A stretch of 64,000 nt of DNA from Candidatus Hydrogenedentota bacterium. GTDB taxonomy: Bacteria > Hydrogenedentota > Hydrogenedentia > Hydrogenedentales > JAEUWI01. The notes beneath the pieces are model-generated. The model worked only from the letters and a program-made list of their open reading frames with translations, was not told where the DNA came from and did not search any database. The stretch spans positions 1 to 64,000 of the forward strand of contig JAEUWI010000005.1 in the NCBI GenBank assembly GCA_016791475.1. Reading direction: 5' to 3'. The translations under genes were made by a program, and so were the position numbers. This document shows positions 18,467-55,088 of the stretch, in pieces (the first letter of the stretch is position 1; every line of letters starts with the position of its first letter).

Positions 18467-18545
18467 TACCTTGTCTTCCTTCCGCTTGTTCTCAGCACTA
18501 TCCCGAAATGTGCACCATAGCCGCAATCCGCGCCTACGCCAGCTC

Positions 18546-19077: not shown

Positions 19078-20088
19078 TTAGTTGGTGAACAGAACGGTCC
19101 GCTTGAACCATTTCCAGAACTTGGCGACTCCCGACGGTTCTGGTTGCGGCGTAGGCGCTTCGTCGTCTCCTATGGCCATGGAATTCCTACGGGCAGTCGG
19201 AGCCAAAAGGCCCGCAACGTTATTCGCCCCCGGCGTGACTGGAGGCACCATAGACACGGCCCCTCCTCCACCGACCGTACCGGTCGCGTCCGTTATTGGA
19301 TGGGCGCGAAGAAGGAATAATTCCACTTCCATCATAGGCTCATATTTCATCAGAATCCGAGGATGAGTCACTCTTAACCCCTCCACGCTGAAGAATTTGT
19401 CGGAGGTACGGAGTTTCTCCAAGAACTTTACAAGGTCTTCCATCTCCATAGAGAATGCAAGACCGGCACGCGTATACTCCACAGTATTTCCTATAAATCC
19501 CGCAGGCTTTGGGTCATAGAGCGCGACACGCGAGATATATTGAGCGTTGTTGTCCATAAGCATCTCGAAGATTGAAATACCGTACTTCAGGCGCTCCAAT
19601 TGGTCTGTAACCAACTTGGGGGTGATGTCGTAGCCCTGCCACTCTTCCGCGTAGTGCACCCCAAGCATCGTCTGGATCTCCATAGGGATGCGCTGATATA
19701 CCTGCACGCCGTATTTCTTTTGTGCCTTCTCCCACAACTCCTTTGTCATCCTCGCCGTCTGCTCACCATACCAGAATTGGAGTATAAACACATCTTCCGG
19801 GGGCTTCTCATATTCTCGCCAATCGGAGTCATTGAAGTACGGAAGACGCACGGAAATCGCGTCCTTCCAAGACTCGACAACCGCGCTATGCTGTGCGATA
19901 ACCGTATCGGGATCCTCGTCCTTAAACGTGCTGTTCAAGCCCTTGTAGGCCGCGCTCAACGATTCGAGCAGCGCCTTGTCTTGAGCATATTTTGTTAGTT
20001 TTGCCTTGAAATAGAACTGGTAAACACAAAAACACACTGCTACCATCGACACCAGAACGAGGACATATAAAATTCGATCTCGGTTCAT
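19078..20088 (-). CDS. PilO/Amuc_1100-like pilus-associated protein
   Basis: 336 residues: one N-terminal membrane helix (MNRDRILYVLVLVSMVAVCFCVYQF cut at ~25), then a periplasmic part with a coiled-coil opening and alpha/beta segments (SFSMEMEDLVKFLEKLR, GLRVTHPRILMKYEPMMEVELFLLRA) like the ferredoxin-like domains of PilO/GspM. The C-terminus is Pro-rich and ends KFWKWFKRTVLFTN. It overlaps pilMN by 4 bases (ATGA), so production is coupled. Codon use is less GC-rich than in its neighbours. Amuc_1100-type proteins are the nearest relatives I can think of; homology is inferred from layout. Confidence 0.62.
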   Translation of the reverse strand: MNRDRILYVLVLVSMVAVCFCVYQFYFKAKLTKYAQDKALLESLSAAYKGLNSTFKDEDPDTVIAQHSAVVESWKDAISVRLPYFNDSDWREYEKPPEDVFILQFWYGEQTARMTKELWEKAQKKYGVQVYQRIPMEIQTMLGVHYAEEWQGYDITPKLVTDQLERLKYGISIFEMLMDNNAQYISRVALYDPKPAGFIGNTVEYTRAGLAFSMEMEDLVKFLEKLRTSDKFFSVEGLRVTHPRILMKYEPMMEVELFLLRAHPITDATGTVGGGGAVSMVPPVTPGANNVAGLLAPTARRNSMAIGDDEAPTPQPEPSGVAKFWKWFKRTVLFTN

Positions 20089-22576: not shown

Positions 22577-23962
22577 CTACGGTACACTAAGCGCGCAACG
22601 AAATCCATAGTCCGCGCGAACCGTTGAAATTTTGTCAAAATGACGCTTCGCACAGCGCACGTCAAAACGATCCGATTGATACGATCCACCCCGAAGCACC
22701 CGGAATATTTGACCGTAATCCTTCGTCACGTCCGTATTCCCTTCGTACGCCTGATACCAGTCCTGCGTCCACTCATACACGTTGCCGGCCATGTCCACGC
22801 AACCATAGGGCGAAAGACCCTCAATATACTTGCCGCGCTCAACCGGCCCGCCCACCTCCGACACCTTCGTGTTGCACACCGTCGGGTCAAACTCGTTCCC
22901 CCAGGGAAACTCCAGCCCCGCCGTGCCCCGCGCCGCCTTCTCCCACTCCTGCTCCGTCGGAAGTCGCTTCCCCACCGCCTTCGCATAATCCACCGCCTGG
23001 TTCCACGTCACGCCGGAAACAGGAAAGTTCTCCCGACCCTCCGGGAATTCATGCTCAAGAAACACTTCCTTAAATTCTGCGTTAGTAACCTCATATTTGT
23101 CAATATAAAATGATGGCAGATCCACCTCGGCCTGGGGGGCCTCATCCGGCGCCCGGCCCGACGCCCCCCGGAGGAAGGGCCCCGCCGGCACCAGCACCAT
23201 CCCCGCCGGAATGTCACCCGGCACCATCTCCAGCAGCACGTCCTGCGGCTCATTGGGCTTCAGCGTTACCCGCGTGCCTTTCATGATATACCCCGACGTG
23301 TGCACATCCACAATATAATTGCCCGGCGGCAGCGAGTATTCCTGCGGCGTCACCAGCGGCTGCTTCGCCCCATTCAGCCAGATCGTGGCCGCCGTGGGCT
23401 TCGAAGAAAGCCGCAGGATCCCCTCCTGGGGCTTCAAGTTCACCTTCGTGTTCACCCCGTACTCGTGGTCCGTCTTCACGTCCAGGACCTCCGACTCATA
23501 GGGATAATAATTCGGATAGGTCAGCCGGTACCGGTGCTCGCCGATCCCCACCGCGTACTTTCTGATCGGGGTCGTGCCGATTACCGCGTCGTCCAGCGTC
23601 ACCTCGGCGCCCGAAGGTTCCGACTCGATCGTCAGATAACCCACCAGCGGCTCCATCTCGATCACGAACTTCTGCGGATCGCCCGCCTCCACCCGGATCT
23701 CGTCCTCCGTATCGCGGTAGCGCTCCATCTTCAGCAAAATATTCAACTGTCCCTCGGGCAAACCCCGAAGCGTCGCCGGGGTCACCGCCGTCACCCCGCC
23801 CTCCACCAGCACCGTCGCGCCCGACTCCGGCGCGCTGTCAATCGTCACCTCCGTCTGCGGTATCTCCTTGCCGCAGCCGCCGGCCAGTGTCGCGAGGCCG
23901 ACCAGAAGGACAAGAAAGCCCGCTCTCGCGCGCACGGCACACAAGTCAAGACGTCTATCCAT
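22577..23962 (-). CDS. Lipoprotein with PEGA repeats and a formylglycine-generating-enzyme-like domain
   Basis: 461 residues. Lipobox LAGGC ends the signal peptide. Residues ~35-250 hold three PEGA-type beta repeats (LTIESEPSGAEVTLDDAVIGTTP; LRLSSKPTAATIWLNG); residues ~260-460 are an FGE-sulfatase/SUMF1-type domain (AGMVLVPAGPFLRG, FYIDKYEVTNAEF, GKRLPTEQEWEKAARG, YGCVDMAGNVYEWTQDW, RVLRGGSY, GFRCAL). Many proteins with this domain are not sulfatase activators; no sulfatase gene is near. It should sit in the periplasm or outer membrane. Of two adjacent ATGs, 23962 has better spacing from GAGG. It may have its own promoter, with the -10 box TATAAT at 24089-24094. Confidence 0.9.
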   Translation of the reverse strand: MDRRLDLCAVRARAGFLVLLVGLATLAGGCGKEIPQTEVTIDSAPESGATVLVEGGVTAVTPATLRGLPEGQLNILLKMERYRDTEDEIRVEAGDPQKFVIEMEPLVGYLTIESEPSGAEVTLDDAVIGTTPIRKYAVGIGEHRYRLTYPNYYPYESEVLDVKTDHEYGVNTKVNLKPQEGILRLSSKPTAATIWLNGAKQPLVTPQEYSLPPGNYIVDVHTSGYIMKGTRVTLKPNEPQDVLLEMVPGDIPAGMVLVPAGPFLRGASGRAPDEAPQAEVDLPSFYIDKYEVTNAEFKEVFLEHEFPEGRENFPVSGVTWNQAVDYAKAVGKRLPTEQEWEKAARGTAGLEFPWGNEFDPTVCNTKVSEVGGPVERGKYIEGLSPYGCVDMAGNVYEWTQDWYQAYEGNTDVTKDYGQIFRVLRGGSYQSDRFDVRCAKRHFDKISTVRADYGFRCALSVP

Positions 23963-24088
23963 CATTGTCCTCAACCACACTCGCCCCGGCATTCCACCGT
24001 GTCCTGTCTACTGCACGATGGCAGCTCCTGCGCCGCACGCCCCCCAAACGAAGCATGCGGCACACCAAAACCCTATTCTGCGCCCCCC

Positions 24089-24121: not shown

Positions 24122-27100
24122 CTATTCCTTCGAGAAACTCTTGTTCGGCTGCTCGTCTTTCAGGGCCCGATCCACCGTCACCGTAAACTCCACCGTCGCC
24201 GGGGTCGTGTCAAATATGTAGCTGGCGGGATCGTTCGGAGGCAACGTGGCGTTCTGCAGAATTCCCGTCCTGAACAACACCTGATACTTCACGTCGCGCT
24301 GGCGGTAGGGGGGCTCCGCGCCCAGCGGACCATCGTCGCCCAGGCGATCCGGCGCGCCCGGATAGCACGTGGAAACGTTCAGGAAATCGAGGCCGCCGCC
24401 CGTGATGATGGCGGATGGGCCCGGCGCGGTGATGAGATCCTGAGGCACGACGAAGGTGTAGCCTCCCGGCGCGCTCGAAGGATCGATCAGGCCGACGGCC
24501 GCCACGGCGCCGTCTTCAAAGAGCTCGTAGGACACGCGCGCACTCGCGGGCGATACGCTGTCCGGTATCTCCATCGTGATATTGAAGCCCGCCTCCACGC
24601 GCGCGGGACAGAGCGGCAGCGCCACGCGGGACGCCGCGCCAAAGCTCTTCTCGCCCGCGTCCACGGCGCGAAGCGCGGCCAGGGTCGGGTTGTTGTACCA
24701 GAAGTTCGCCTGCACCTTCGTATCCAGCGCGGCGGCCATGCTGACCCCCGGATCCGTCCAGCGGCGGAAATTTACATTGAGCGCCGTCAGATCATTGGAG
24801 GTGGTCAGGTTGCCCAGCACGGGGATACTCTGCAGGTTACCCGCTTCGTCATAGCCCTGCACGGCAATCAGATACTCGGAGCCCACCGGACCCGTCATCA
24901 GATCCCGGAGCCGCGTGGTTCCGGTGAAGATGGTGTCCAGCCCGATCACACGGGTATTCGCATCCATCCAGTTGCTCCAGGTGCCCGCCGTGAGGTCGGT
25001 CCACGACGTGGCGGCGACACCGGGGAAATCCGCTCCCCACAGGCGCCAGCGCACCGACGGAACGCAGGGGAAGGGATCCTGAGGATCTTCGCCGCCCTGG
25101 CCGCGGAAGAGCCCCCAACTGAAGACCGGATTGGTCGACGGCACCTCGTGGGGTCCGCTGCGCAACTCGCCCCGGGCATCGGGGAACCACCAGAAGTGGT
25201 AGGGGCGCATGGGTATGAAATTCTGGAAGGACGGGTCGAGGGTGGCCTCGTTGCCCGCCAGATCCATGACACGGATATTGGCGATGGCGTGCCACTGGTT
25301 GACGCCGTCGTGGGCCAGATTCGTAAAGTTCCACACGGTCTGCAGGGTGTTGCCGCCCGAATTCGTGTAGGTCACCGTCAGTTCGGAGGCGTTCGCGATC
25401 AGCTCCGGCGTGGACTCGTCGGCGCTGTCCCACCAGGCGAAGCCGGGGCGCACCGTATAGTCTCTGAACAGGGCAGCCTGCTTGCCGCCCGGCGTATTCT
25501 CAACGCGGCCATTGGGCAGGCCGTTCACCGCGAAGCCCGCTCCCACGTCGGTAAAGGTGAGGGCGAGGCCCACATTGGCCTTGAGGTATGGCGGAATGAC
25601 GGGCAGATTGCCATCGAGGAAAACGGACGGCTCGCCCGTGTTCCCATTGAGGTAACCGGCGTTGGCGCCCGCATTGCCCAGGAGCGCGCTGGCCGCACCG
25701 CTCCAGGGAGCCCCTCCGTCGATGGGGTCGTCCAGCAGGGTGGCCGCCGTCGCATACTGATCCGCGAGCAGGGTGAGATTCGTCGTCACCACCGGCGGGA
25801 TCGTGTCCAGACCGAACACGCGACCGTAGACCGCCTGGCCGACCGCGCTGAAGTTGCCCTCGGTGTCGCCGTGCAGGTCGTTGGTCGCCGCGATACTCTG
25901 GGTATCGTCGGTGTTCAGGTAGATGATGTAATCCTTCTGAATATTGAAGCCCGGCGCGGGATAGAGCGTCTCCAGCACATCCTCATCGATGGTGTAGTCC
26001 GCCGTGCCAAAGCTCGTGTCGACGAGGCTCTCGGTGATAATCGGAAGGGGACCAATAATATTGGCGGCGGTGCGAATATCCACCACGTCTTCGTGCTTGA
26101 TGTACAATTCCGCATCGCTCAGATCCAGTCGGCGCGCGTTGATCTCGATGGTGATGACCCCCTCGCCCACATAGGCCCGTGCGAAGCCGCCCTGGATCAC
26201 AAAGCACTCGGTCCAGTCCGACGAACCGCCCGAACCGTCCGCGTCATCCGCGCCCACCACGAGGTTGCCGGTCGCCCGGGTCTCGGTGTCAAAATCGAGG
26301 CCCGTGAAGGGCATGCTGAAAGGGTCGGTCTCCAGTTCGCCCGTGTCCACGCCGCTCTGGCGCTCCTGGGCCGCGCTGGCCAGTTTACCGGGAAAGGGCT
26401 CGATCACGGTTTCAAACACCGTGGCGGGAACCAGAACATCAATGACCGCATTGGCGTCGGTGACGCCGGTCGGCATGGCCACCGGATTACCCCCGGCATC
26501 GGTCACCCAGTTGCCCAGCACTTCCAGGGTGGCCGGGGTGCCGTCGATACCCGCGCCGCTGTCGTGGATCAAGGTCGCCACAATGTGGGCCTCGCCGTCC
26601 AGGGCGTTTACCCCCAGCCCGGTATTTGTCAGCAGCGTGCACTGGAGCACGTTCAACTTGCCGCCTTGATCGATTCGAATGGCGTCGCCGCCGCTGCCGG
26701 TAATGACCGATCCGGCAATATAGACGTTGGTCGGGTCGAGGCAATTCAAACTGATGCCGGTGATGCCGTCAAACATGCAGCGGCGGATTTCCACGGTGCT
26801 GTCGGGCATCGCCAGAATGCCCGTGGTGCCGCCCTTGATCGTCACCCCCAGAATCTCAAAGGAGCGGTCGTCTTCCACCGTGATGACGGGGCCGCCGCCG
26901 GTGCCCACGATCTCGATCTTGTCCGGTCGGGAGGCCTGCTTGCCACGGATGGTGATGTTGTTCTTCGCGGCGTTGATCACCAGATCCGTCGCCAGCGTGT
27001 AGGTCGCCGGCGGATCGGTCAACAGCGTGGGACCATCCAGCACAATCGTGTCGCCCGAGGTCGCGGCCGTGAATGCGGAGTCCAGCGTGGTGTGGGTACA

Positions 27101-27211
27101 GGTCGCGCACACATCCAGGGTCGCCGCGCGGGCCGGATCTACGATCAAGACGGCGCCGGGCACGGCCAGGAGCAGGGCCACCGCCCGATTGAATCGCTTG
27201 CTATACCACAT
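24122..27211 (-). CDS. Large secreted right-handed beta-helix protein
   Basis: 1029 residues with a Sec signal peptide (MWYSKRFNRAVALLLAVPG start; cut near ARA-AT). Residues ~35-260 have the features of a parallel beta-helix (DSAFTAATSGDTIVLDG, NNITIRGKQ, GVTIKGGTTGI, VTGSGGDAIRID, ATLIHDSGAGIDGTP), the fold of pectate lyases and many adhesins. The rest (~260-1029) is beta-rich with no catalytic motif I recognise. GGAG stands 9 bases before the ATG. It lies directly after the giant GspK-like gene and before the lipoprotein, inside the pilus region, so it may be cargo or a surface component of that machine. Function is unknown. Confidence 0.68.
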   Translation of the reverse strand: MWYSKRFNRAVALLLAVPGAVLIVDPARAATLDVCATCTHTTLDSAFTAATSGDTIVLDGPTLLTDPPATYTLATDLVINAAKNNITIRGKQASRPDKIEIVGTGGGPVITVEDDRSFEILGVTIKGGTTGILAMPDSTVEIRRCMFDGITGISLNCLDPTNVYIAGSVITGSGGDAIRIDQGGKLNVLQCTLLTNTGLGVNALDGEAHIVATLIHDSGAGIDGTPATLEVLGNWVTDAGGNPVAMPTGVTDANAVIDVLVPATVFETVIEPFPGKLASAAQERQSGVDTGELETDPFSMPFTGLDFDTETRATGNLVVGADDADGSGGSSDWTECFVIQGGFARAYVGEGVITIEINARRLDLSDAELYIKHEDVVDIRTAANIIGPLPIITESLVDTSFGTADYTIDEDVLETLYPAPGFNIQKDYIIYLNTDDTQSIAATNDLHGDTEGNFSAVGQAVYGRVFGLDTIPPVVTTNLTLLADQYATAATLLDDPIDGGAPWSGAASALLGNAGANAGYLNGNTGEPSVFLDGNLPVIPPYLKANVGLALTFTDVGAGFAVNGLPNGRVENTPGGKQAALFRDYTVRPGFAWWDSADESTPELIANASELTVTYTNSGGNTLQTVWNFTNLAHDGVNQWHAIANIRVMDLAGNEATLDPSFQNFIPMRPYHFWWFPDARGELRSGPHEVPSTNPVFSWGLFRGQGGEDPQDPFPCVPSVRWRLWGADFPGVAATSWTDLTAGTWSNWMDANTRVIGLDTIFTGTTRLRDLMTGPVGSEYLIAVQGYDEAGNLQSIPVLGNLTTSNDLTALNVNFRRWTDPGVSMAAALDTKVQANFWYNNPTLAALRAVDAGEKSFGAASRVALPLCPARVEAGFNITMEIPDSVSPASARVSYELFEDGAVAAVGLIDPSSAPGGYTFVVPQDLITAPGPSAIITGGGLDFLNVSTCYPGAPDRLGDDGPLGAEPPYRQRDVKYQVLFRTGILQNATLPPNDPASYIFDTTPATVEFTVTVDRALKDEQPNKSFSKE

Positions 27212-27327: not shown

Positions 27328-30300
27328 TTACTCACCACTGTCCGACTGGTCCGAGGGCGCCCGACGCTCATAGGTCGCCGTGGCCTTCGTCGCCGCCGTG
27401 GTCACGAATTCGTTGCGATCACGGTAGTTGATAAAACCGTCTTTGTTCTGGTCGATACCGTAACCGGCTTCCACCGTCATGATAATTTCAAACACGTCGG
27501 AGCGCACCGTAATCAGGTTGCCCATGGCGCGCAGGCGCGCCTGGATCTCATCGAAGCGGCGCGCCGGAACGGCATCGTTCGACAGCGGATAAACCGCCCA
27601 GTCTTCAACACCATCCGTCCCCGTACCGGTAAGATCCGGAACATCCATCCGGCTCAGCGTATAGTTGTAGTCGAAGGCGTTGGAATCCTTGGTCAGATCG
27701 CCCACGCTCTCATAGTAGCGGCCATCCGCATGCTCGGTCCGGCCGCCCGCTATCATGGCGCTCAGGCGGAACGCGCCCAACTGGTGCGCGGCCATGGAAG
27801 GCAGGCCCGTGTTCGGCACCAGCAGGTCGGAGTCCGGATTCAGCACGTCGCCGGTGAAGCGGTTGCGCGTGGGCGGCGTCGGCCCGCCCGCGTAGAACCC
27901 GGCCGCGCCGTCGGGCGCCGTCCAGCTTCCATCCACCGGCAGCGGCCCGCTGTAGCGCATGAGACCCACCGGATCGTCCACGGGAATGGGAGCGCCCAGC
28001 GCGCCGGTCGTCCCGGCGACGTTGGTCGGATACACGGTCTGGGCCACGTTCACCACGCCGGGCAGGCCCAGGAGCGTGCTGAAGTAATCGTGGTTCGCGC
28101 CCTGCACCGAAACGCGCTGCTGGACCGTATTGATGTTCACCCGGCCCGCCGTCCGCTTGCGGGGCGACAGCACCACATGGGTCAACACACCCACATCGCC
28201 CGGCAGGCCCACGTTGCGCACGCGAATCGCCAGGAAGTTATCCGTCACCCGCACGATCTGAGGCTGCCAGCCGCCCGAGGTGTTGTTGCCATAGGGGATG
28301 TAGCCATCGGCGCCCGCGCGGTACTGCACCGTGGGATTCCAGTCGTCGGGATGAATCAGACCGGCCGGCTTCGCGGAGGGATCGGCAACCGTGGCCAACT
28401 GGGGCGCGATACCACGGGCCTCGGTCGGATCGGTGATGACGTCGATGGCGTAGACCGGATCATAAAGGCGGCCATTCGGGTCCTTGCGGGGATTCGTGGG
28501 ATCCTTGATCAGGAGGTTGTTGGTCACCGCGTTCACCGGCACGACGCTGCCATCGGACAAGACGTAGTTCACAGGCGTATTGTTATTGATGAAACTCGTT
28601 GTGTTCTTGGCCTCAATACCCTGCGCGGGAAGATCCCGCACCTGGGCCGAGGCACGGGCCGCTTCTTCGATGCGCTCCCGCATCTGGGGCAGGAAGGTGC
28701 CGATGTACAGCACATACTCGCCGTTTTCCAGGCCGTCGGCCCCGTCCCACGTGAAGAGGGCTTCGGGCGGCGCAAAGCCGTCGCGCTTCTCGCTCACGAA
28801 CATGGCCGTGCGCTTCTCCAGCGGCCAGCGGCTGTCGAGATTGTTGTTGTCGTAGACGTTGTTGCCCGCAAAGTTCGCGGGGTCGGTGATATAATCGGAA
28901 TCAAAGAGGTAATACAGCGGGAAGCTTACCCCCGCGTTCGCTCCGTTCACATAGCTCGGATAGTTCGAGAAGTGATCCGGGTTCGACGGTGCGGCCGTAT
29001 CCGAACCCAGTCCAAAGAGGAAGACCGGAGTCCAGGCCGCCGGCGCGAGCCAGGTGTCGGGTCCGCCACCGGCGATGGTGGGCACCCAATCCACTTCGGC
29101 CAGCGTAACCGCTTCCGGCCGGATCGGGCGAAGCTCCGCCTGGCCCATGGTCAACACCGTGCTGTCCACCGCCATACTGTTCATGGCCGCCGTGAGCAGA
29201 TCCTGCGAGTAGGTGTCGTCCACCAGGTCCTGGCCCAGCGTGGCGCCCCGCAGGGCAATATCCTGCGTGACGGAAATGCCGTCGCCCGGACCACTGTCAC
29301 CCTGCAGATTATAATTCAGCATGGTCATGTCATGAAGATACCCGTGTATATTGGTTAACGGGTTTGGGTTGGCAGGGGTATCAACCGCGTCGTGCAGGTA
29401 CATCTGGTGAGGCACCCGCATCAGGTCCGCCGGACTCTGGAAGGCCCGATTCGCCACAAAGGTGCGGGAATGGTTCCAGCGCTGATCCGGCAGCGACTTG
29501 GTGTTGGCCGTGGTGTCGCCCGGCAGGCGCAGGGCGTTCTTAAGCGGATTGGCCCCGTTGAATGCGCCGTCCTCGTGGGTGCGGAAATAGTCGAAGGGGC
29601 CCTGGAAGCCGGGACGGCTCGGGAACTGGCGCGTATCCGTCGCCGCCGCCGCGATCAGCTCCAGATCCCGCGGGTTGTGGCCGCGCCGCATCGCCGCGTT
29701 CATACGCAGGGGCGAACCGCTCATGGCATGGCCGTAAAGCTGGAGATTGCGCGCCACCGTGGCCACATCCACGTTGGTAAAGGCCGGGTGCGTCCCCACA
29801 AAGCGCGGGCGAATGTCCTGCACATCAGCGGGATTAGCTGAGATAACTAGAGTATCTGTGCCCGTCAAGCCCGGATTCACACTGCCGAGTTCCGCTTCGA
29901 AGTAACTCAGGCTGTCGGCCCAGTCATCGTAATTGCCGTCCGTCGCCTGCCAACGATTTTCCGTGCCGAAGCGATCACCGTTGTACAGCGGATCCTTCCG
30001 CTCCAGGCTGCGATAGAAATCAAGACCCATCTGGTTCGGAAGCCAGAACGTGCGGTATCTTGCGTTTAGACCGGGCTGCTCGATGAGCACATCGCCCGGC
30101 GTGCCGCTTCCGTCAAGATCCACCGACACATAGGGCACCGCCACCACGTCGTCGATGGTGCGGTTGGTCACATCCGCTTCGCGATAGGTCACCCGGTCCA
30201 CGACCTGGCGTTCAAGCTGCGACTTTTCATACAGCGTAACGATGACGTTGTCGCCCGGATACCAACGGCGCTCGGAGAAGGCTTTCCAGTCCTGGGGATC

Positions 30301-33300
30301 CAGGTCCGACCCCTGGTAGGACGTCGGAATGGCGGTGGGAATCACGGTGTTGTCGCCGTAGATGTTGTAGCCCGCGTTGATGCCGTGCTGAAGTCCAAGA
30401 CCACTGGGCACGATAGAATCCACCGTGAAGGGTGCATTGGGAACGCCCGTGGAATAAGCCGTGTTCCAGTCCAGCCGATCCGGGAAGAGCGAAAACGGCA
30501 TGATACCGGCCTCAAAGCTCCCCGCGCCGAAGCGCCGCACCGCGAGCACATTGTTGACCAGATTCCGGCCTTCGTCCACGCCCTCGCTCAGGCTCGCGCG
30601 ATAGAACACGCTGTCCACGCCAATGCCGAAGAAGTCCGCTTGATAGGGGCGCTCGTCCACAAAGCCGTCGAAGTCGTTGTCGACCATGTCCATATCCAGC
30701 GTGCCGGGAATGTACTGCGCGGGCACACCCGGAACCCGGCTGGCGTCGATCCAGTCCGGGAAGCCATCCGCACCCGCCGTGCCGACAACGTAGCCGGGCA
30801 GGGCGCCATTCTGCGTCCGCTCGTCGATCTGCTCAAAGAGCACATAGCCGCCGTCACCGTCGTTGTCGAAGCCATCGCGCTCGGGGTAGTTTGGCAACAC
30901 GCCGCCTTTCAACACAAAGGCGGAGACATCGTCCAAAGTATCGACCTCGTCCAAGCGGATCGGCGTAGGTGTAGCCGTAAAGGGATTGGCGGTGCCGATC
31001 TGGACCGACTCCAACTGGATGATACGATCCCAAGGCAAGTTGCCGCTGGAATTGGAGAAGAAGCTGCCGAGGGCTTTGCTACTCGCAAGGGTCCCCTCAT
31101 TCGCGAGGTTGTCCGTGTCCGTGGGCGCATTCAAGGAAGTACGACCATCGCCGTCGTTGTCCACATAGTCGGTGAGGGCGTTGGTGGCCGGATTGACCTT
31201 CCGGCGGAATACGCTGCCGGTCACGTCCTGAAGAGTCGGGAAGATTGAGGCGAGGCTGTTGTCTCCTATCGGCGGCACGGTAAGGGCATCCGAGAGGAAA
31301 CCCGCCGTGACCAGGGGATTCGGCGAGTCGCCATCGGCCAGGCCCATGCCGTTATCGGCAATCCTGTGGTCCGCAGGAACGGCACCCTTGAAACTATCGA
31401 ACTTATTGAAGGCCAGGAGCACCATGCCCCGGGGCGCGATCTCGGTATTGGCCGGGATGGTCCAGATACTCTTGAAGGGATCCGAAGGCACGGAAGGCCG
31501 ATCAGGGATACCCACTTCCAACTGCCAGCCACCGATGTCCACGATATCGTCGGACACGTTGACCAACTCCACCCATTCGTGATCGGGTTCCTGGCTGAAA
31601 TCCAGGGAGTTGATCGCCACGGTATAAGTCAGGGGCGGATTCAGCGGGTTGGCGAGTGCCGTTACAAAGTTGGGATTGACTCGAAATGCGATGTGGAGTT
31701 CGAAATCCGAGGCCGCTTCGGGTACGGTGATCGTGAAGGTCTCCGAGCCGCTCGTGGCTTGGTTGTTGAATAGTCCTTCCACGTACCCGTCGAAGTGGTA
31801 GTTCGCAAGGGAAGCAAACCCCCCTCGGGTTCCATCAACAAAGGTCCACCCCGCTGGCGCACCGGGAATCTGACCCCCGATCTGAGCATCGTCGATATTC
31901 TGGAAGCCATCGGCGGCACCCAGGACGATATCTTGAACGATTGAGTTGCCATCCTGAAGACCTGAAGTCTTGCTGCGATACTTTACCGCGCTCTGCAAGA
32001 GCGGCTCATTGAATGCGGCGAGTGCAGGAATCAACTGATTGATGGGCACCACCGTGGTCGCGCCCGTATTGGTCGTCGTGTTGATTGTCAGGTAGTAGCG
32101 ACCGGGAGGCAGACCATCGGTGGGCGCAATCACGAATTCCAGAATATCCGCCGCGTCGACGAGCGTTGCTGGAACGGTGTTGTCCATAGAAATCCCAAGG
32201 TAGGATGCCTCACCCAGAACACCGCCGTTAAACACGTTCCATCCGTTGAGCAGGGGAGTAGTCAGGCGCGCCACGGCGAACTCGGGAAGAATCGACGGGG
32301 CCGCCGGGAACCCGAAGTCGGGGCTGGGATCGAAGTTCGGCAGTAATGCCGGTGCGATTGCGGTCATGGGATCGCTCGGATCGAGGACGGCGGTGGGAAC
32401 CGGCACGGCCTCGGCCTCGATGCGGCGCACGGGGCGCACCATGAGTTCGTTGATCCGGATGGCTTCGCTGCCCGCGGCGGTGTAGCTGATTTCGCGAACT
32501 TCGGGACGGCCATTCTCGCCGGTGACGGCGGCTTCAAAAGTCCACCAGTCGTCTTTCACTTCGAGCTTGCGGTTCAGCTCCAGGGTATTGCGCAGGTGGT
32601 CTTCAAGCACGCCGAGGGGGAAGAGTTCCGTATCCGCGGTGCGCTCCCGGGCGCCGAGGCGCGTGGGGAAGAAGTCATAGTTGGCCAGTTCGAGCCCATC
32701 GGTGCTCAGCTTCTGGCGCTCGGTGCTGAGCACGGAGCGCGTATGGCCGGGATCGCGGTTGTCCACGATGTCCACGGCCGCCTGCATGGCCTGCAGGACC
32801 GGGTCCGCCGGGAAGAAGGTCGCGGAGTTGTTCAGCAGGCCGCCACTCGCCCGGATGTGCACGTCTTTCTGGCGGAGGCCCTCGGCGAAGCGATTGGCCA
32901 CGGGAGCCGTTGCTACAGGCGCCGCCGTGACGGATTGGAAATTATTCGCGAGCACCAGGTTGGCGGCGATCTGCTGGGGCGTGGCGAAGTTGAAGTCGAG
33001 CTTGTTGATGGCCCGGATACCGCCCTGGCCGCCGATGAAGTTCGTGTTCCGGTCGGTGCTGAAGGTGGTGACGCTCTGTCGGAGGGCGGCGGTGGTGCCG
33101 GTGCCCAGGCCGAAGATCTCCTCAAGCTGGAGGGTGTCCTGCAACTGAAGATCGCCCAGTTCGCCCAGCTCGTTGATGGCGCCGTCGAGATCGTTGTCGA
33201 GGCCGTCGGTCAATCCGCTGCGGTCATAAGGATTGCGGCCTTCGGCCACAAGATTCGAGGCGGGGTTGAGGCGCTGAAGTTCGCCCGGCTCGTCCACGCC

Positions 33301-35499
33301 TTCAAAGGCGCCGAGCTGTCCGAAGTATTCCGCGTAGCGCGTCGCCTGAAGCTCCGCCTGGGCGCTCGCCACCTGGGCGCCCGTGAGGACGCCGCCGCGG
33401 ATGAAGCTCTGGGCCACGGCGGAAAGCTGGGGCAGGTACAGCCCCTCGTCCACCAGACCGTCGCCGTCGTCGTCGCGACCGTTCAGCGCCGCGATCATGG
33501 CGTTCGCGTTGTCGTCCACGCGGCCGTAGCCGGGGTAGATCACGTCGCGATTGAAGGCGGTGGTCACGGTGGGGTCCCAGCCGGTCGGGTCGCCGCCGGG
33601 CACGCCGGTGCGCTGCAGCCACAACTGGGCCGCCTCCACCACGCCGACGCCGGGAAGGGTGCGCGTTTCAAATTCCGCCGCGGAATTGCCCAGGCCCAGG
33701 GAACGGTAATAGCCCGTGTTGATCAGGCCGCCCAGGCGCGTGGAGGCCAGCAACTCGGGAACCGCCGGACCCAGGGGGTCGTAGCTCTGGCCGCCGGCCA
33801 CGTTTACGTTGACCTTGCTGGCTTCGTCGCGGATGGTGATGGCGGCGCGGCCGGCCAGATCGCACACGGGCTCGCCCGAATGGGTGATGCGAATGGCGGG
33901 TTCAAGCAGGGTGTAGTCGAAGTTGGAGACGATGCCCGGCTCCGCGTGGAACACGGCGTTGGCCGGCTCGATGCGCAGGCCGCCATTGGGCGCAATGGCC
34001 GTTTCCACGTTGATATCTTCATAGGCGCGGAGAATGGCCGTGGTGAAGAGGCCCCGATCGTCGGCGGGCCATTCGCCGGGGCTCCGCCAGGTGGTGAGGT
34101 AAAAGGGATCGCCCACCGCCAGGGAGCTGTTCGCCGCCACGTTCTCATTGATCTGAATCAGGTTCGTTCCGACGATGGGGGGCGTGGGCGCGACCGGGTT
34201 GGCCACGCCGGAGTCTTCGAAGCCCGTAAGCTGGAAGGGCGGAAAGGTGCCGCTGGCCGTGATGTCGTTGGTGTTTGGCCCGACATAGGCGTAGACCTGG
34301 TAGTCGTTGATGAGCATGTCGAAGTCGTTGTCGATGGCATCCACATCGGTGGCGGTCAGGTTGACGACGCCGCCCGCCGTCTCGACGGAAATGGTGTTCG
34401 GGAGCGTCACCGTGATGGGCACGAGTACCCCAACCGCGTTGGGCACCAGATCGGGCACCTTGCCGTCGGCGTTGAAGTCCAGGAGAATGGTCAGACCCGG
34501 CAGGGGCGCGGTCAGGAAATACTTGTTCTCGTTCGCCGGGTCGTCCACCACCCCGTTGCCGTCGTTGTCGAGACCGTCGCCCCGCCGGTCCGGGCCGAGC
34601 CCGTGATAGACGAAGCTCGCGAGCTCCATGGCGCCTTCGTTGGCCTCGGGCAGTTCGTCATAGCCGTTGATGCCGGTGCTGTCCAGGTCGTTGTCCACAC
34701 CGTCGTCGTACATGCGCCGACCGGTGGCGTCGTCCACCACTTCGCCACCGCTGAAGAAACGGTCCTGAGGCAAGGGGATCCAGATCGCATCGTTCAGCCC
34801 GTCCAGATCGTTGTCCACGTCGGTCCAGGTGTGAATCCATTCCAGGGGATATTTCTCGTCCGTGAAACCGTCCGTGCCGGAGGGGCCGTAGAAGGCCGGC
34901 GTCACAAAGGGAGCCCGGTTGCGATCCGCCACGTTGAAAATGTTGCCGTAGGGCAGGCCGGTGGCGTCGTCCAGTACGTTGGCATAGGCGATGGGGTTGG
35001 CGCCCCACACGGCGGGATCTTCAAAGCGCGGAATGGTCAGCCAGTCTTTGGAGCGGCCGCCGTTGAACATCAGCTCGGGGGGCAGGCCGTCTCCAAAATC
35101 AAGAAGGGGCATGGCCCGGAGATTGACCAGCGGCGCGCCGCCGGCCTGAAGGGGGACGCCGTTCCACAGGGCCCACTGCTTGCCCACGGCCCAACTGCCG
35201 TTGAAGAGTGAGAACGGAGCGGAGTCCGAAGAGGTCGCGTTGGGGTGCTTGAGGAAGTCGCGGTTCAGTTCGGCCTGACCCATGGCATAGGCCGCATCGA
35301 GGAGGAGATCGACCTGCGCCTGATTCTTCACGTTCTCGGCGTTGGTCACTTCCTGGCGGCTGACGGCGTAAAACGTGAGGGCGACGGCCAGCAGGATCGT
35401 CATGATGGCGATCGCCACGACCAGCGCGGCGCCGCGCTCGCTGGAGCGGCCGGGCTTCTTGGATTGCCTGTCGATCATTGTGTACTGCACCTTTTCCAT
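27328..35499 (-). CDS. Giant GspK/PilX-like minor pseudopilin (2723 aa) with Ca-type loops and lamin-tail domain
   Basis: The N-terminus (GRSSERGAALVVAIAIMTIL, residues 17-36) is the Arg-Gly-Ala-Ala-Leu helix of GspK/PilX-type minor pseudopilins, followed by SRQEVTNAENVKNQ. Near 2450-2487 the segment GRVNINTV...YFSTLLGLPGV is the GspK-style Asn-Thr helix; KVNVNVAGG near 565 is a second such segment. GspK is normally ~300-440 residues. The extra ~2300 residues include ten D-N-D-x-D-G-like loops (near 226, 272, 308, 385, 675, 768, 1446, 1543, 1605, 2685) and a lamin-tail-like domain (~1297-1330, DHEWVELVNVSDDIVDIGGW). GGAG precedes the ATG. It occupies the K position after gspG-H-I-J. A tip or adhesin role is an inference. 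Confidence 0.83.
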   Translation of the reverse strand: MEKVQYTMIDRQSKKPGRSSERGAALVVAIAIMTILLAVALTFYAVSRQEVTNAENVKNQAQVDLLLDAAYAMGQAELNRDFLKHPNATSSDSAPFSLFNGSWAVGKQWALWNGVPLQAGGAPLVNLRAMPLLDFGDGLPPELMFNGGRSKDWLTIPRFEDPAVWGANPIAYANVLDDATGLPYGNIFNVADRNRAPFVTPAFYGPSGTDGFTDEKYPLEWIHTWTDVDNDLDGLNDAIWIPLPQDRFFSGGEVVDDATGRRMYDDGVDNDLDSTGINGYDELPEANEGAMELASFVYHGLGPDRRGDGLDNDGNGVVDDPANENKYFLTAPLPGLTILLDFNADGKVPDLVPNAVGVLVPITVTLPNTISVETAGGVVNLTATDVDAIDNDFDMLINDYQVYAYVGPNTNDITASGTFPPFQLTGFEDSGVANPVAPTPPIVGTNLIQINENVAANSSLAVGDPFYLTTWRSPGEWPADDRGLFTTAILRAYEDINVETAIAPNGGLRIEPANAVFHAEPGIVSNFDYTLLEPAIRITHSGEPVCDLAGRAAITIRDEASKVNVNVAGGQSYDPLGPAVPELLASTRLGGLINTGYYRSLGLGNSAAEFETRTLPGVGVVEAAQLWLQRTGVPGGDPTGWDPTVTTAFNRDVIYPGYGRVDDNANAMIAALNGRDDDGDGLVDEGLYLPQLSAVAQSFIRGGVLTGAQVASAQAELQATRYAEYFGQLGAFEGVDEPGELQRLNPASNLVAEGRNPYDRSGLTDGLDNDLDGAINELGELGDLQLQDTLQLEEIFGLGTGTTAALRQSVTTFSTDRNTNFIGGQGGIRAINKLDFNFATPQQIAANLVLANNFQSVTAAPVATAPVANRFAEGLRQKDVHIRASGGLLNNSATFFPADPVLQAMQAAVDIVDNRDPGHTRSVLSTERQKLSTDGLELANYDFFPTRLGARERTADTELFPLGVLEDHLRNTLELNRKLEVKDDWWTFEAAVTGENGRPEVREISYTAAGSEAIRINELMVRPVRRIEAEAVPVPTAVLDPSDPMTAIAPALLPNFDPSPDFGFPAAPSILPEFAVARLTTPLLNGWNVFNGGVLGEASYLGISMDNTVPATLVDAADILEFVIAPTDGLPPGRYYLTINTTTNTGATTVVPINQLIPALAAFNEPLLQSAVKYRSKTSGLQDGNSIVQDIVLGAADGFQNIDDAQIGGQIPGAPAGWTFVDGTRGGFASLANYHFDGYVEGLFNNQATSGSETFTITVPEAASDFELHIAFRVNPNFVTALANPLNPPLTYTVAINSLDFSQEPDHEWVELVNVSDDIVDIGGWQLEVGIPDRPSVPSDPFKSIWTIPANTEIAPRGMVLLAFNKFDSFKGAVPADHRIADNGMGLADGDSPNPLVTAGFLSDALTVPPIGDNSLASIFPTLQDVTGSVFRRKVNPATNALTDYVDNDGDGRTSLNAPTDTDNLANEGTLASSKALGSFFSNSSGNLPWDRIIQLESVQIGTANPFTATPTPIRLDEVDTLDDVSAFVLKGGVLPNYPERDGFDNDGDGGYVLFEQIDERTQNGALPGYVVGTAGADGFPDWIDASRVPGVPAQYIPGTLDMDMVDNDFDGFVDERPYQADFFGIGVDSVFYRASLSEGVDEGRNLVNNVLAVRRFGAGSFEAGIMPFSLFPDRLDWNTAYSTGVPNAPFTVDSIVPSGLGLQHGINAGYNIYGDNTVIPTAIPTSYQGSDLDPQDWKAFSERRWYPGDNVIVTLYEKSQLERQVVDRVTYREADVTNRTIDDVVAVPYVSVDLDGSGTPGDVLIEQPGLNARYRTFWLPNQMGLDFYRSLERKDPLYNGDRFGTENRWQATDGNYDDWADSLSYFEAELGSVNPGLTGTDTLVISANPADVQDIRPRFVGTHPAFTNVDVATVARNLQLYGHAMSGSPLRMNAAMRRGHNPRDLELIAAAATDTRQFPSRPGFQGPFDYFRTHEDGAFNGANPLKNALRLPGDTTANTKSLPDQRWNHSRTFVANRAFQSPADLMRVPHQMYLHDAVDTPANPNPLTNIHGYLHDMTMLNYNLQGDSGPGDGISVTQDIALRGATLGQDLVDDTYSQDLLTAAMNSMAVDSTVLTMGQAELRPIRPEAVTLAEVDWVPTIAGGGPDTWLAPAAWTPVFLFGLGSDTAAPSNPDHFSNYPSYVNGANAGVSFPLYYLFDSDYITDPANFAGNNVYDNNNLDSRWPLEKRTAMFVSEKRDGFAPPEALFTWDGADGLENGEYVLYIGTFLPQMRERIEEAARASAQVRDLPAQGIEAKNTTSFINNNTPVNYVLSDGSVVPVNAVTNNLLIKDPTNPRKDPNGRLYDPVYAIDVITDPTEARGIAPQLATVADPSAKPAGLIHPDDWNPTVQYRAGADGYIPYGNNTSGGWQPQIVRVTDNFLAIRVRNVGLPGDVGVLTHVVLSPRKRTAGRVNINTVQQRVSVQGANHDYFSTLLGLPGVVNVAQTVYPTNVAGTTGALGAPIPVDDPVGLMRYSGPLPVDGSWTAPDGAAGFYAGGPTPPTRNRFTGDVLNPDSDLLVPNTGLPSMAAHQLGAFRLSAMIAGGRTEHADGRYYESVGDLTKDSNAFDYNYTLSRMDVPDLTGTGTDGVEDWAVYPLSNDAVPARRFDEIQARLRAMGNLITVRSDVFEIIMTVEAGYGIDQNKDGFINYRDRNEFVTTAATKATATYERRAPSDQSDSGE

Positions 35500-38856: not shown

Positions 38857-39777
38857 TTAGTTGTAGAACCGCATGAAGGTCTGGTTGCGGTCCCAGTTGT
38901 TCACGTCGTCACCACCGCCCACGAGTTCAGGTTCCTGACCGCCGGGATAGGCGCTCGTGATGGGCGAAATGCCGCCGTACTGGGAGCTCCCCGGCGTGCC
39001 GGGGTTATAGCCCGGAACGGGAGGAAGAAATTCCGCCTGACCCGATACCAGATTGGCGCCCTTGGACCAGATAAAGGTGTCCACTTGATTGGCCGCGGGA
39101 ACGCCCGCCAGGTCAATTTCCTGACCATCGATATCCGTGATAACGAATCCCGACGTGGAACCGGAGCCCAGGCTCAGGTCATCGCCGTTCAACACGGCCG
39201 TGCTCTCGCCGGGGACGACCTTGGCCGCACTCGTGGCGGGCAGATAGACGCGGAAGACATTCGGGCCGTTGGTGACGCGCCAGGGGCCGGGGAATATCTG
39301 GTAAAGTTCGCCCCAGGGATCGAAACCCAGCTCGGCGAAGTACGTCGTACCCAGATTGCGAACCACATCTTCCTGATAGTCCAGAATCGCGGTACCGGTG
39401 CCGTCGTCCGAGACCGTCGCGCCGCGACCCTTCTTCAGGAGCCGATAGACCGCGTTGGTGTAGGCTTCCGTAAAGTTTTCAAAGTCGCCCGCGGCCCAGG
39501 TGGACATGTCCCGGACGTCCTTGGAATTCGCGGAGTTTATGCCTACGGAGTCGCCAATGACTTCCAGGTTCAGCACATCGTTCAGGCTGCTGCGGCCCGC
39601 GTCGGACAACAGCTTCGTAATCGCCAGCTCGATATTCTGAATCTCGGAGATCGCCTGCGTGGCCCGGCCACGGGCAATGTAGCTCTGGATGTTCGGAATG
39701 GCGATGGCCGCGAGGATGGAGATAATCGCCATCACGACCAGGAGTTCCACGAGGGTGAAACCTTGTTTTCTTCTCAT
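38857..39777 (-). CDS. GspG-like major pseudopilin, enlarged (second system)
   Basis: 306 residues. Prepilin signal MRRKQGFTLVELLVVMAIIS with Gly -1 and Glu +5, followed by ILAAIAIPNIQSYIARGRATQAISEIQNIELAITKLLSDAG. The GspG feature of a conserved DPWGE segment is present (FDPWGELYQI, near residue 165). It is about twice the usual 140-150 residues; the extra C-terminal half is Gly/Pro-rich (PPVPGYNPGTPGSSQYGG). AGGAGG precedes the ATG. It probably forms the shaft of the second machine. Confidence 0.9.
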   Translation of the reverse strand: MRRKQGFTLVELLVVMAIISILAAIAIPNIQSYIARGRATQAISEIQNIELAITKLLSDAGRSSLNDVLNLEVIGDSVGINSANSKDVRDMSTWAAGDFENFTEAYTNAVYRLLKKGRGATVSDDGTGTAILDYQEDVVRNLGTTYFAELGFDPWGELYQIFPGPWRVTNGPNVFRVYLPATSAAKVVPGESTAVLNGDDLSLGSGSTSGFVITDIDGQEIDLAGVPAANQVDTFIWSKGANLVSGQAEFLPPVPGYNPGTPGSSQYGGISPITSAYPGGQEPELVGGGDDVNNWDRNQTFMRFYN

Positions 39778-39836: not shown

Positions 39837-41087
39837 TCAGTTCCCGCCGCCCGGGTTGTTGATCTGGTCGCCCAGGGTGAAGATGGGCAGGTAGAGGGAC
39901 ACCACGATGAAACCGATGATACCGCCCAGCACCACGATGATGATGGGTTCCATCAGGGTCAGCATGGCCTCGACCGCCACTTCCACTTCCTGGTCGTAAA
40001 TATCGGCAACCTTGTTCAGCATCTGGTCGAGCTGGCCCGTTTCCTCGCCCACGTCGATCATGTTCACCACCATGGGCGGGAAAACCTTGGTCTCGTCCAG
40101 CGGGGCGGCGATGGTGTCGCCCTCCTTGATACTGTCGTGCACCTTGTCCACGGCGTCCTGAATCACACTGTTGCCGATGGTTTCGCGGGTAATCTTCAGC
40201 GCCTGCAGAATCGGCACGCCGGAGGAGATCAGGGTACCCAGGGTTCGGGCGAAGCGGGCCACGCCCACCTTGGTGACCAGATCGCCGACCACGGGAAATT
40301 TCAGACTCACGATATCGAAGACGCGCTGGACCACGCGGACCTTCATAATCAGTTTCATGAAGATGATGGTCGAGTTGATGACCAGCAGCACCATCCACCA
40401 TTTGTACACCATGAAATCGCCCGCCGCGATAAGGAAGCGCGTGGGCGCGGGCAGTTCGCCGCCCAGTTCGCCGAAGATTTCGGCGAACACCGGAACCACC
40501 TTGATCAGCAGGAAGGACACGATACCGGCCGCGATGAGGAGCACGGCGATGGGATACACCATGGCGCCCTTCACCCGGCGTTTCAGCGCTTCGCGCCGTT
40601 CCAGGAAGGTGGCCACGCGCTGGAGCACCACTTCGAGCATACCGCCCACCTCGCCCGCGCGAACCATGTTCACGAAAAGGCGGTCAAACTGTTTCGGGTG
40701 CTTCGCCAGGGCTTCGGAGAAGGTCGAACCGGTCTGGATGTCCTGGGCGCATTCGCGCAGGATATCCCGCAGTTTGCAGGGCTTGAGCTGGGCGATCAGC
40801 ACGTTCACACTGCGCAGCAGCGGCAGGCCGGCGTCGATCAGCGTGGAGAGCTGGCGCGTCATCACCACGATTTCCTTGGTCTTCACGCCGCCGAAATAGA
40901 GCTCGTCGATGCCCTTCTTGTCCTTGCGCGCCCGCTTCTCGTCGCGCTTGGTCGCCTCGCGTACCGTTGTGGGGTACAGGCCAAGGGTGCGCACGTCGTT
41001 GATGGCCAGGGCCTTGCTGTCGGCCTGAACCACCCCGAAGATCTGCTTGCCCTCTTTGTTCAGGGCCTTATACGCGTACTTGGGCAT
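39837..41087 (-). CDS. GspF/PilC inner-membrane platform protein (second system)
   Basis: 416 residues with two T2SSF domains (~75-195 and ~275-400), each with the pattern FARTLGTLISSGVPILQAL or MTRQLSTLIDAGLPLLRSV. The N-terminal start MPKYAYKALNKEGKQ and the membrane helices near 175-200, 225-245 and 380-402 are standard for GspF/PilC. It anchors the assembly ATPase and turns its motion into pilin addition. It lies between the second ATPase and the pseudopilin genes. Confidence 0.94.
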   Translation of the reverse strand: MPKYAYKALNKEGKQIFGVVQADSKALAINDVRTLGLYPTTVREATKRDEKRARKDKKGIDELYFGGVKTKEIVVMTRQLSTLIDAGLPLLRSVNVLIAQLKPCKLRDILRECAQDIQTGSTFSEALAKHPKQFDRLFVNMVRAGEVGGMLEVVLQRVATFLERREALKRRVKGAMVYPIAVLLIAAGIVSFLLIKVVPVFAEIFGELGGELPAPTRFLIAAGDFMVYKWWMVLLVINSTIIFMKLIMKVRVVQRVFDIVSLKFPVVGDLVTKVGVARFARTLGTLISSGVPILQALKITRETIGNSVIQDAVDKVHDSIKEGDTIAAPLDETKVFPPMVVNMIDVGEETGQLDQMLNKVADIYDQEVEVAVEAMLTLMEPIIIVVLGGIIGFIVVSLYLPIFTLGDQINNPGGGN

Positions 41088-41101: not shown

Positions 41102-42847
41102 TTAATCTTCGTAGCTATCGGTGTGATACAACACTTCGGCAGCGGTGGTCGTTCCCTGAACCGCCTTCATCAGCGCCGCCTCGCGCAGGGTCATCATGCC
41201 CAGGTGCTTGCGGCAGTAGCGGCGCAGCGTCAGCGCCGTGGCGCTCTCCAGCACCAGATCGCGGATACCTTCGTCGACCGACACCATTTCATACAGTCCT
41301 GTGCGACCGTTGTAACCCACATAGTCGCAGTTCACGCAGCCTTTCGCGCGGAAAAGCTTGAACTTGGGGTCGCGGCGCCAGGCCGAGGGAATGCCCAGCT
41401 CGTCCATTTCCTTCTCGTCCGGCACATAGGGCTCTTTGCAGAAGCGGCAGACCTTCCGGCAGAGCCGCTGGGCCAGCACCGCCTCCAGCGAGGCCGCAAT
41501 GAGGAAAGGCTCCACGTCCATGTCGAGCAGTCGCGTGATCGTTTCGGGCGCGCTGTTCGTGTGGAGCGTGCTCAGCACCAGGTGGCCGGTCAGCGAGGCT
41601 TCGACGGCGATCTGGGCCGTCTCCAGGTCGCGGATCTCGCCCACCATCACAATGTCCGGGTCCTGGCGCAGGATGGAGCGCAGGCAGCGCGCGAAGGTCA
41701 GGCCCACGTCGTCGTTCACGTTGCACTGGATCAGCCGGTCGATCTGGAATTCCACCGGGTCCTCGGTGGTGATGATTTTCACCTCGGGCTCGTTCAGAAT
41801 ATTCAGGCACGCGTACAGCGTGGTGGTCTTGCCGGAACCCGTGGGCCCCGTCACCAGCACGATGCCGTTCGGCTTGTTGATGGCCTCGTCGATCTGCGCG
41901 TAGATGTCCGCCGGGAAGCCCAGCGCCACCAGATCGTGCTTTACCGCGTTGCGGTCGAGAATACGCATGACGACGCTCTCGCCGTGGAGCACGGGCAGGG
42001 TGGACACGCGGACGTCGATGATCGTATCGCCCACTTTCAGCTCGATGCGGTTGTCCTGGGGGAGGCGCCGCTCGCTGATGTCCATGTTGGAAATAACTTT
42101 GATGCGGGAAACCAGCGCCACGGCCAGATTCTTCGGCGGGCACACAATCTCCTGGAGCATCCCGTCCACGCGGATGCGGATGCGGAACTCTTCTTCGTAG
42201 ACTTCCATGTGAATATCGGAAGCGCGCTTCTGCACCGCTTCGAGAAACACCAGGTTCACGATCTTGATCACTTCGGGCTGCTGCGCCAGCTCCACCAGGT
42301 TGTCGGTATCGCCCGTGACCTGCTGGATCTTCTGCTCGTCCATCGTCAGCTCGGCGTTGCCGACCTTCTCCTGAAGGTCCAGCAGCATGGAGTGGATGGA
42401 CTCGCCCTCGAAGCTGTAGTTGTTCTTCCAGGCGTTGGACACGTCCTGCTGGTTGCTCACCGCGCCCTGGATTTCCATGCCCGTGATCTGTTGCAGATCG
42501 TCGAGCACCTGAAGATTCAGCGGGTCCGCCATGGCCACGATCAGCCGGTCGCCCGTCTTGCGGATGGGGATCACGCTGTAGAAACGCGCCACGTCCGCCG
42601 AAATCGTGTGGATCACCTCTTCGGTGATCTTCAGCTTGGAAAGGTCCACGCGCTCCATGCCGGACTGCACGCCCAGCGACTCGATGATGTCCTGCTCTTC
42701 GCAGAGCCCCATCGTCACCAGAACGCGGCCCAGCATGTCGCCGGTGAGGCGCTGGCGCTGAAGGGCTTCGTCAAGCTGGAGCGGGCTGATGACGCCCTGC
42801 TCGACCAGAATATCGCCCAGTTGCTTCTCTCGGGATCCAAGTGCCAT
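41102..42847 (-). CDS. GspE/PilB-family assembly ATPase
   Basis: 581 residues. N-terminal MshEN-type domain (LGDILVEQGVISPLQLDEAL, ~10-60); ASDIHMEVYEEEFRIRIRVDG; Walker A GPTGSGKTT (~residue 337); Asp box ITTEDPVEF; Walker B VMVGEIRDLET; His box HLVLSTLHTN; the four-Cys zinc site CRFCKEP...CVNCDYVG. It hydrolyses ATP to power pseudopilin extension. It follows PilT by 6 bases and precedes the platform gene by 14, so it is most likely the motor of the second system. Confidence 0.94.
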   Translation of the reverse strand: MALGSREKQLGDILVEQGVISPLQLDEALQRQRLTGDMLGRVLVTMGLCEEQDIIESLGVQSGMERVDLSKLKITEEVIHTISADVARFYSVIPIRKTGDRLIVAMADPLNLQVLDDLQQITGMEIQGAVSNQQDVSNAWKNNYSFEGESIHSMLLDLQEKVGNAELTMDEQKIQQVTGDTDNLVELAQQPEVIKIVNLVFLEAVQKRASDIHMEVYEEEFRIRIRVDGMLQEIVCPPKNLAVALVSRIKVISNMDISERRLPQDNRIELKVGDTIIDVRVSTLPVLHGESVVMRILDRNAVKHDLVALGFPADIYAQIDEAINKPNGIVLVTGPTGSGKTTTLYACLNILNEPEVKIITTEDPVEFQIDRLIQCNVNDDVGLTFARCLRSILRQDPDIVMVGEIRDLETAQIAVEASLTGHLVLSTLHTNSAPETITRLLDMDVEPFLIAASLEAVLAQRLCRKVCRFCKEPYVPDEKEMDELGIPSAWRRDPKFKLFRAKGCVNCDYVGYNGRTGLYEMVSVDEGIRDLVLESATALTLRRYCRKHLGMMTLREAALMKAVQGTTTAAEVLYHTDSYED

Positions 42848-45831: not shown

Positions 45832-45861
45832 GGTGACACCTCTTGCCTTATGCACACTGTA

Positions 45862-49825: not shown

Positions 49826-49907
49826 TGCAATACCTCAATACTTTACCAAATCACCAGTGGACTGAGCGGACTCGGTGGACCGAAACAAACCCAAACCACC
49901 AACGCAA

Positions 49908-49970
49908 TCAACTGTCAACTGTCAACTGTCAACTGTCAATTGTCAATTGTCAATTGTCAATTGTCAATTG
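49908..49970. repeat. 7-bp tandem array overlapping the gspJ stop codon
   Basis: TCAACTG x4 (49908-49935), then TCAATTG x5 (49936-49970), without interruption. On the minus strand these read CAGTTGA and CAATTGA; one unit provides the TGA of gspJ (49964-49966). Confidence 0.92.
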
Positions 49971-50869: not shown

Positions 50870-50873
50870 AACC

Positions 50874-53678: not shown

Positions 53679-53697
53679 CGCTCTCTTGCTCCTCATG

Positions 53698-55082: not shown

Positions 55083-55088
55083 GAAGAA

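Follow-up and report, generated by a model that had tools for sequence, protein, structure and literature searches.

A giant, apparently K-type minor pilin encoded in a type IV pilus-type cassette of Hydrogenedentota

The DNA analysed here (the window; 64,000 nucleotides from a Candidatus Hydrogenedentota genome) contains a single uninterrupted open reading frame of 2723 codons on its minus strand, placed where a K-type minor pilin gene would follow its G-, H-, I- and J-type neighbours. An earlier note on the sequence had described the product as a giant GspK-like pseudopilin. We asked whether this frame represents one genuine gene, to which family and which machine its product belongs, and what the additional sequence might do.

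The coordinates and length reported in the earlier note are correct (Table 1). AGGAG is present 5′ of the ATG. Removal of the leader between G23 and A24 would leave a mature product of about 2700 residues, with a computed mass of 290.5 kDa and a computed pI of 4.3; the computed net charge is about −170. Structure predictions were unusable both for residues 1–1200 (single sequence; mean pLDDT 31) and for residues 1524–2723 (two sequences; mean pLDDT 24), and PDB profile searches with three sub-alignments of the protein gave no significant match.

The giant K is carried by nearly every sampled genome of the poorly known phylum Hydrogenedentota: a protein search found homologues in 58 of 68. The genomes that apparently have no giant K also lack the orthologue of the retraction ATPase (PilT) of the surrounding cassette, or have contigs that stop a few kilobases past PilT and short of the K position. 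G067, which is 100% complete, has neither gene. Presence of the giant K was associated with presence of the cassette PilT (Fisher p 0.007), with the reservation that the sequences are not independent and that contig breaks contribute. Three genomes with fragmented assemblies (G032, G050, G065) have a K match and no cassette-type PilT.

The earlier note had itself raised the objection that the frame might join separate genes through an assembly error. The length is indeed unusual, and many contigs of fragmented genomes end inside the gene. However, 20 loci extracted from other genomes have intact longest frames of ≈2000–3070 aa that begin with a K-type N-end, and when 18 full-length proteins are aligned, invariant residues occur from end to end, with the conserved motifs collinear. 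GC3 is also high throughout the gene (0.73–0.87). Since intact homologues exist in independent genomes, an artefact or a fusion of neighbouring genes is refuted, and we give it virtually no chance of being correct.

K-type sequence features

The protein starts with a prepilin-like helix, G23/AALVVAIAIM. The NCBIfam GspK model NF037980 matched residues 21–88 (E 9e-6), with a score of 25.4 bits that is below the cut-off of 130, and also matched 17 of the 18 homologues. An hhalign comparison with 20 canonical GspKs from the phylum aligned the first ≈70 residues across 71 columns (E 5.2e-8, prob 94.8). Both results confirm the GspK/PilX-like N-terminal helix that had been proposed, and a helix at residues 19–52 was predicted even in the low-confidence model. 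Only 3 of the 18 members were matched by PilX_N. The K-type N-helix is in itself widespread; matches outside the phylum stop before the end of the phylum signature that follows α1.

Two Asn-type segments, DEASKVNVN and GRVNINT, had been noticed at the two ends of the protein, and in profile comparisons both line up with their counterparts in GspK, the latter in the area of residues 2440–2500 that had been marked for such a check. Each motif is short, and neither match is strong by itself (prob 41 and 30); what carries weight is that the two motifs are the right ones in the right order. The order is the same as in the window's canonical GspK, but the spacing is 1886 residues compared to about 120. 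The NLITVRSDVFEI sequence near the C-terminus resembles, by eye, FTVYSHVFRI of GspK. BLASTP of the giant K against the window's canonical GspK returned nothing, the likeness being detectable by profile comparison only, and the Pfam T2SSK domains PF21687 and PF03934 matched none of the 18 members. (Matches to PF03934 elsewhere in the genome were to ComEA-, DnaE- and Tex-like HHH proteins, none of which is a pilin.)

Decisive support for the K identity came from bridging proteins that match both the giant K and canonical GspK. Six genomes in three families outside the phylum (L117–L122) encode long K-type pilins of 1026–1572 aa with a lamin-tail domain. They matched the giant K at its N-end (E 1e-11 to 1e-13), in the 525–870 region (to 1e-24), in the lamin-tail region (1e-10 to 1e-13) and at its C-end (1e-10 to 1e-16), and the canonical GspK profile at 1e-7 to 1e-11. 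In one of them, a Pfam T2SSK match directly follows the second anchor (E 2.8e-4, just under the cut-off). Shared with the giant K are the N-helix, both anchors (the second degenerate in L118), the lamin-tail, a TT[RK]S C-end and, where upstream sequence is visible, a position downstream of PilC and pilin genes, which lie on the same strand in three loci. Unlike the giant K, these proteins are half as long and have neither the post-α1 signature nor the 1480–1960 module. Taken together, the comparisons support a K-type minor pilin that appears to have been greatly enlarged by insertions. With shorter lamin-tail relatives outside the phylum, the giant K therefore marks the far end of a class of long Ks that has hardly been described. 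Three further large frames, at L126 5041–8076 (1012 aa), L116 288–5393 (1702 aa) and L127 3878–7240 (1121 aa), have a K-type N-helix and gave no lamin-tail match.

The giant K also matched TIGR02600, the model for Verru_Chthon cassette protein A, as did 17 of the 18 members (best E 1e-10), and the I, J and H/G-like pilins encoded beside it gave sub-threshold matches to Verru_Chthon B, C and D. Verru_Chthon A is likewise a large K-type protein from a cassette with three prepilin-like proteins, and the N-end, first anchor and C-end are common to both. That the giant K is a plain member of this functionally unassigned family nevertheless seems improbable to us: the scores (13.5 bits for the giant K, 31 bits for the best member among the matches listed) come nowhere near the curated cut-off of 332.3, the matches are limited to the N-terminal helix, the first anchor or the C-end, and the giant K is twice as long as the model of 1296 positions. 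The matches suggest that the Verru_Chthon cassette may itself be a tip-pilin set, in which A to D would correspond to tip pilins of the K, I, J and H/G types. A genome search with TIGR02600 gave no match anywhere, controls included, and is uninformative on absence. Our literature search found no description of the Verru_Chthon cassette, of giant pilins or of lamin-tail pilins.

Table 1. Features of the window discussed in the text.
Feature	Position	Strand	Basis or remark
Giant K-type minor pilin gene	27328..35499	minus	ATG 35499, stop 27328; 2723 aa; homologues in phylum
Prepilin cleavage site G23/A and α1 helix (residues ≈23–52), without Glu at +5	35344..35433	minus	NF037980, hhalign
Phylum signature after α1, consensus ATSTDHxWRxxFNGAWxAGKPW (residues ≈85–111)	35167..35247	minus	alignment of relatives
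First GspK anchor DEASKVNVN (residues 558–566)	33802..33828	minus	hhalign to canonical GspK DEYGKLNLN, E 2.8e-4, prob 41
GspK-like region (residues 525–870)	32890..33927	minus	common to long Ks outside phylum
Lamin-tail domain (residues 1293–1365)	31405..31623	minus	PF00932, E 1.3e-4, below curated cut-off
Phylum-specific middle module (residues 1480–1960; WKAFSERRWYPGDNVIVTLY ... DFYRSLERKDPLYNGDRFG)	29620..31062	minus	44 phylum genomes
Second GspK anchor GRVNINT (residues 2452–2458)	28126..28146	minus	hhalign to canonical GspK GRINPNT, E 5.4e-4, prob 30
C-terminal segment NLITVRSDVFEI ... YER (residues ≈2652–2712)	27364..27546	minus	GspK by eye; long-K C-end by profile
J-type minor pilin, 570 aa	35611..37323	minus	best match Verru_Chthon cassette protein C
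I/PilV-type minor pilin, start probably internal, mature ≈125 aa	37307..37924	minus	TIGR02523 E 3e-13
H-type minor pilin, 348 aa	37714..38760	minus	profile match
PilA/GspG-like pilin, 306 aa, presumed major subunit	38857..39777	minus	profile match
PilC/GspF platform protein	39837..41087	minus	profile match
PilB-type assembly ATPase with MshE-type c-di-GMP motif	41102..42847	minus	profile match
PilT retraction ATPase	42854..43954	minus	TIGR01420, over cut-off
Second PilB-type assembly ATPase with MshE-type c-di-GMP motif	43990..45855	minus	profile match
Secreted right-handed β-helix protein, 1029 aa, directly after K	24122..27211	minus	PF13229 E 3.5e-9
PEGA and FGE-sulfatase-like lipoprotein	22577..23992	minus	domain match
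PilM of pilus cassette, 758 aa	20085..22361	minus	PF11104 E 1e-43
336-aa protein in PilN/O position	19078..20088	minus	position; no family match
PilQ-like secretin with N-terminal TPRs, pilus cassette	15344..18610	minus	PF00263 E 1e-33
Separate complete T2SS cassette, C-D-E-F-G-...-J-K-L-M	46144..60570	minus	profile matches
Canonical GspK of T2SS, 437 aa	48512..49825	minus	PF21687 E 1e-20; NF037980 E 2e-32

The pilus cassette and the adjoining type II secretion system

The giant K gene closes a series that reads PilB-PilT-PilB-PilC-A-H-I-J-giant K, and is followed by genes for the β-helix protein, the PEGA/FGE lipoprotein, PilM, the PilN/O-position protein and the TPR secretin. Giant Ks were found at the same locus in relatives, as the earlier note had proposed to check: the order PilC-A-H-J-giant K is kept in 16 of the 17 with informative upstream sequence, PilT being visible in 15 of these 16. 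In the exception, G014, the giant K is not adjacent to the pilus cassette. The doubling of PilB, with one copy on either side of PilT, is also conserved in relatives.

A type II secretion system (T2SS) cassette lies upstream on the same strand, head to tail with the pilus cassette. It encodes GspC, D, E and F, two GspG-like proteins, further prepilins, a GspK with the T2SSK_1st domain, GspL and a GspM-position protein. The T2SS is complete with its own 437-aa GspK, which rules out the giant K as the GspK of that system. The earlier note was right to place the protein at the K position after G-H-I-J, but not in the type II machine; it is the neighbouring PilT-bearing cassette that carries it. 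Because this cassette is separate and has its own PilM and secretin, we assign the giant K, on gene content, to a type IV pilus-type machine. The GspK and giant K genes are found on one contig and the same strand, ≈12–14 kb apart, in members of several further families, namely G002, G040, G046, G047, G024, G031 and G057. The two cassettes make up a 45-kb type 4 filament block, the order of which is partly conserved across the phylum, and the TPR secretin is unlike the GspD of the T2SS.

The cassette could also be regarded as a second secretion pseudopilus, in which the giant K, as a periplasmic cargo receptor or tip, would load large substrates and remain permanently at the cell surface. The K is GspK-like, the next gene encodes a secreted β-helix protein that would be a possible substrate, and the adjoining T2SS is built from the same kinds of parts. 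We consider this unlikely, however, since the cassette encodes a PilT retraction ATPase with 79–100% identity across the phylum and a complete T2SS is already present. The β-helix protein is no constant partner, being encoded beside the giant K in just a small number of relatives (G035, G034, G041).

The presumed insert

The giant K has nine strict D-x-[DN]-x-[DN]-G loops, against an expectation of 0.49 and a highest count of 4 among 300 shuffles; with a looser loop at residue 390, they account for the ten calcium-type loops counted previously. The homologues have 5–19 strict loops each. GspK binds calcium (PMC6211770), and by analogy the inserted part of the giant K may do so as well. The lamin-tail-like domain that had been noticed between the anchors is a weak PF00932 match in the giant K itself, but 16 of the 18 homologues match (best E 5.7e-13). 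It is the only known domain with a possible adhesive function that was found in the protein.

The module at residues 1480–1960 is strongly conserved in 44 Hydrogenedentota genomes and has no real counterpart among 317 genomes outside the phylum. Matches in G251, G106 and G146 were rejected, as these are non-pilin proteins with only calcium-type loops in common.

A candidate tip pilin with a possible built-in adhesin

The tip complex of type 4 filaments is capped by a subunit without Glu5 (PMC10191384). Glu5 is missing in 21 of 21 giant Ks and present in the A, H, I and J pilins of the window's cassette (the H, I and J genes were not all detected in every relative). Since it lacks Glu5, the giant K is expected at the very tip, and presumably it sits at the tip of the pilus.

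In other bacteria with retractile pili, the K subunit carries PilY1 as the adhesin (PMC10191384). PilY1 (PF05567) was found in none of the 68 Hydrogenedentota genomes, although a divergent PilY1 could escape a profile search; the identical search detected it in 27 of 318 genomes outside the phylum, which served as the positive control. The C-terminal β-propeller of PF05567 had no match in the giant K. We infer that the giant K binds a ligand and replaces PilY1, the protein being most economically read as a tip-borne adhesin or presentation scaffold.

It thus appears fairly probable that the giant K is an enlarged K-type tip pilin of a retractable type IV pilus-type machine, with the insert forming a calcium-stabilised ligand-binding head. 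Its N-terminal helix would be made and cleaved as in any pilin, and the protein would be part, with H, I and J, of the filament-initiating complex. The strands of the K pilin core would be separated by about 2000 inserted residues (≈430 before the first anchor and ≈1770 between the anchors), and their calcium-type loops, lamin-tail and phylum module would be displayed as a large head, so that one polypeptide did the job of K/PilX and a separate PilY1. This retains much of the earlier proposal of a tip protein turned into a giant calcium-stabilised adhesin or scaffold, namely the K-type minor pilin, the calcium-type loops, the lamin-tail and the enlargement; T2SS membership is what falls away. 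The accompanying claim, that a protein of this size could not cross a secretin unfolded unless it had a route of its own, is not supported either: the general secretory pathway delivers pilins to the inner membrane, where prepilin peptidase cleaves them (PMC12075869), and the secretin of type IVa pili (T4aP) exports the assembled pilus, its tip already bearing the large non-pilin PilY1 (PMC10191384). The question raised is rather whether a folded 290-kDa tip fits the secretin lumen.

A tip that catches DNA for natural transformation is another conceivable function. In Thermus ComZ, a domain inserted in a pilin is thought to bind DNA (PMC8179133), PilT would drive uptake, and ComEA-type helix-hairpin-helix models give hits at the C-end of the long Ks from outside the phylum. 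Such matches were found in 0 of 18 phylum members, however, the region is part of the GspK fold anyway, and a net charge of about −170 is unfavourable for DNA; we regard this function as very unlikely.

An enlarged tip pilin with a ligand-binding head can be compared with several known systems. GspK/XcpX of the T2SS has the same N-terminal helix without Glu5, stands at the end of H-I-J-K, is rich in calcium sites, and has DE-x-[SG]-K-[VL]-N-[VL]-N followed by GR-[VI]-N-x-NT in the same order, but is only ≈300–450 aa long. The giant K differs from it in having no PF21687 or PF03934, in scoring far below the NCBIfam cut-off and in its PilT-bearing cassette. That cassette, with PilB, PilT, PilC and H-I-J minor pilins, and a presumed tip position, resemble PilX/PilK with PilY1 in T4aP; PilX, however, is small and needs PilY1 as a separate adhesin, for which no homologue was found in the phylum. 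Like the modular pilins (S. sanguinis PilB/PilC, CofB, ComZ), the giant K combines a pilin core with extra modules, in its case a recognisable non-pilin (lamin-tail) domain. In ComZ and GspK, the additional domain sits within the pilin sheet and is not a terminal extension (PMC8179133). The most extreme modular pilin named in that survey has 860 residues, with 12 copies of one motif (PMC8179133), compared to ≈2000 inserted residues, conserved across a phylum, in the giant K. The giant K is probably an enlarged modular tip pilin; it is neither a categorically new protein nor a T2SS component.

It is quite possible, if somewhat doubtful, that the phylum has dispensed with PilY1 by merging K tip pilin and adhesin in a single ≈290-kDa polypeptide. 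With ≈2000 inserted residues, this would be among the largest pilins described, at the end of a graded series from GspK (≈400 aa) through the lamin-tail long Ks (1000–1570 aa) to the giant Ks (2000–3070 aa), and would show how far a pilin can enlarge and yet apparently remain the filament-initiating tip. The prediction is that in phyla without PilY1 the K subunit itself contains the adhesin.

The A-, H- and J-type pilins of the cassette (35611–39777) are also oversized, with mature lengths of ≈302, 322 and 549 aa.
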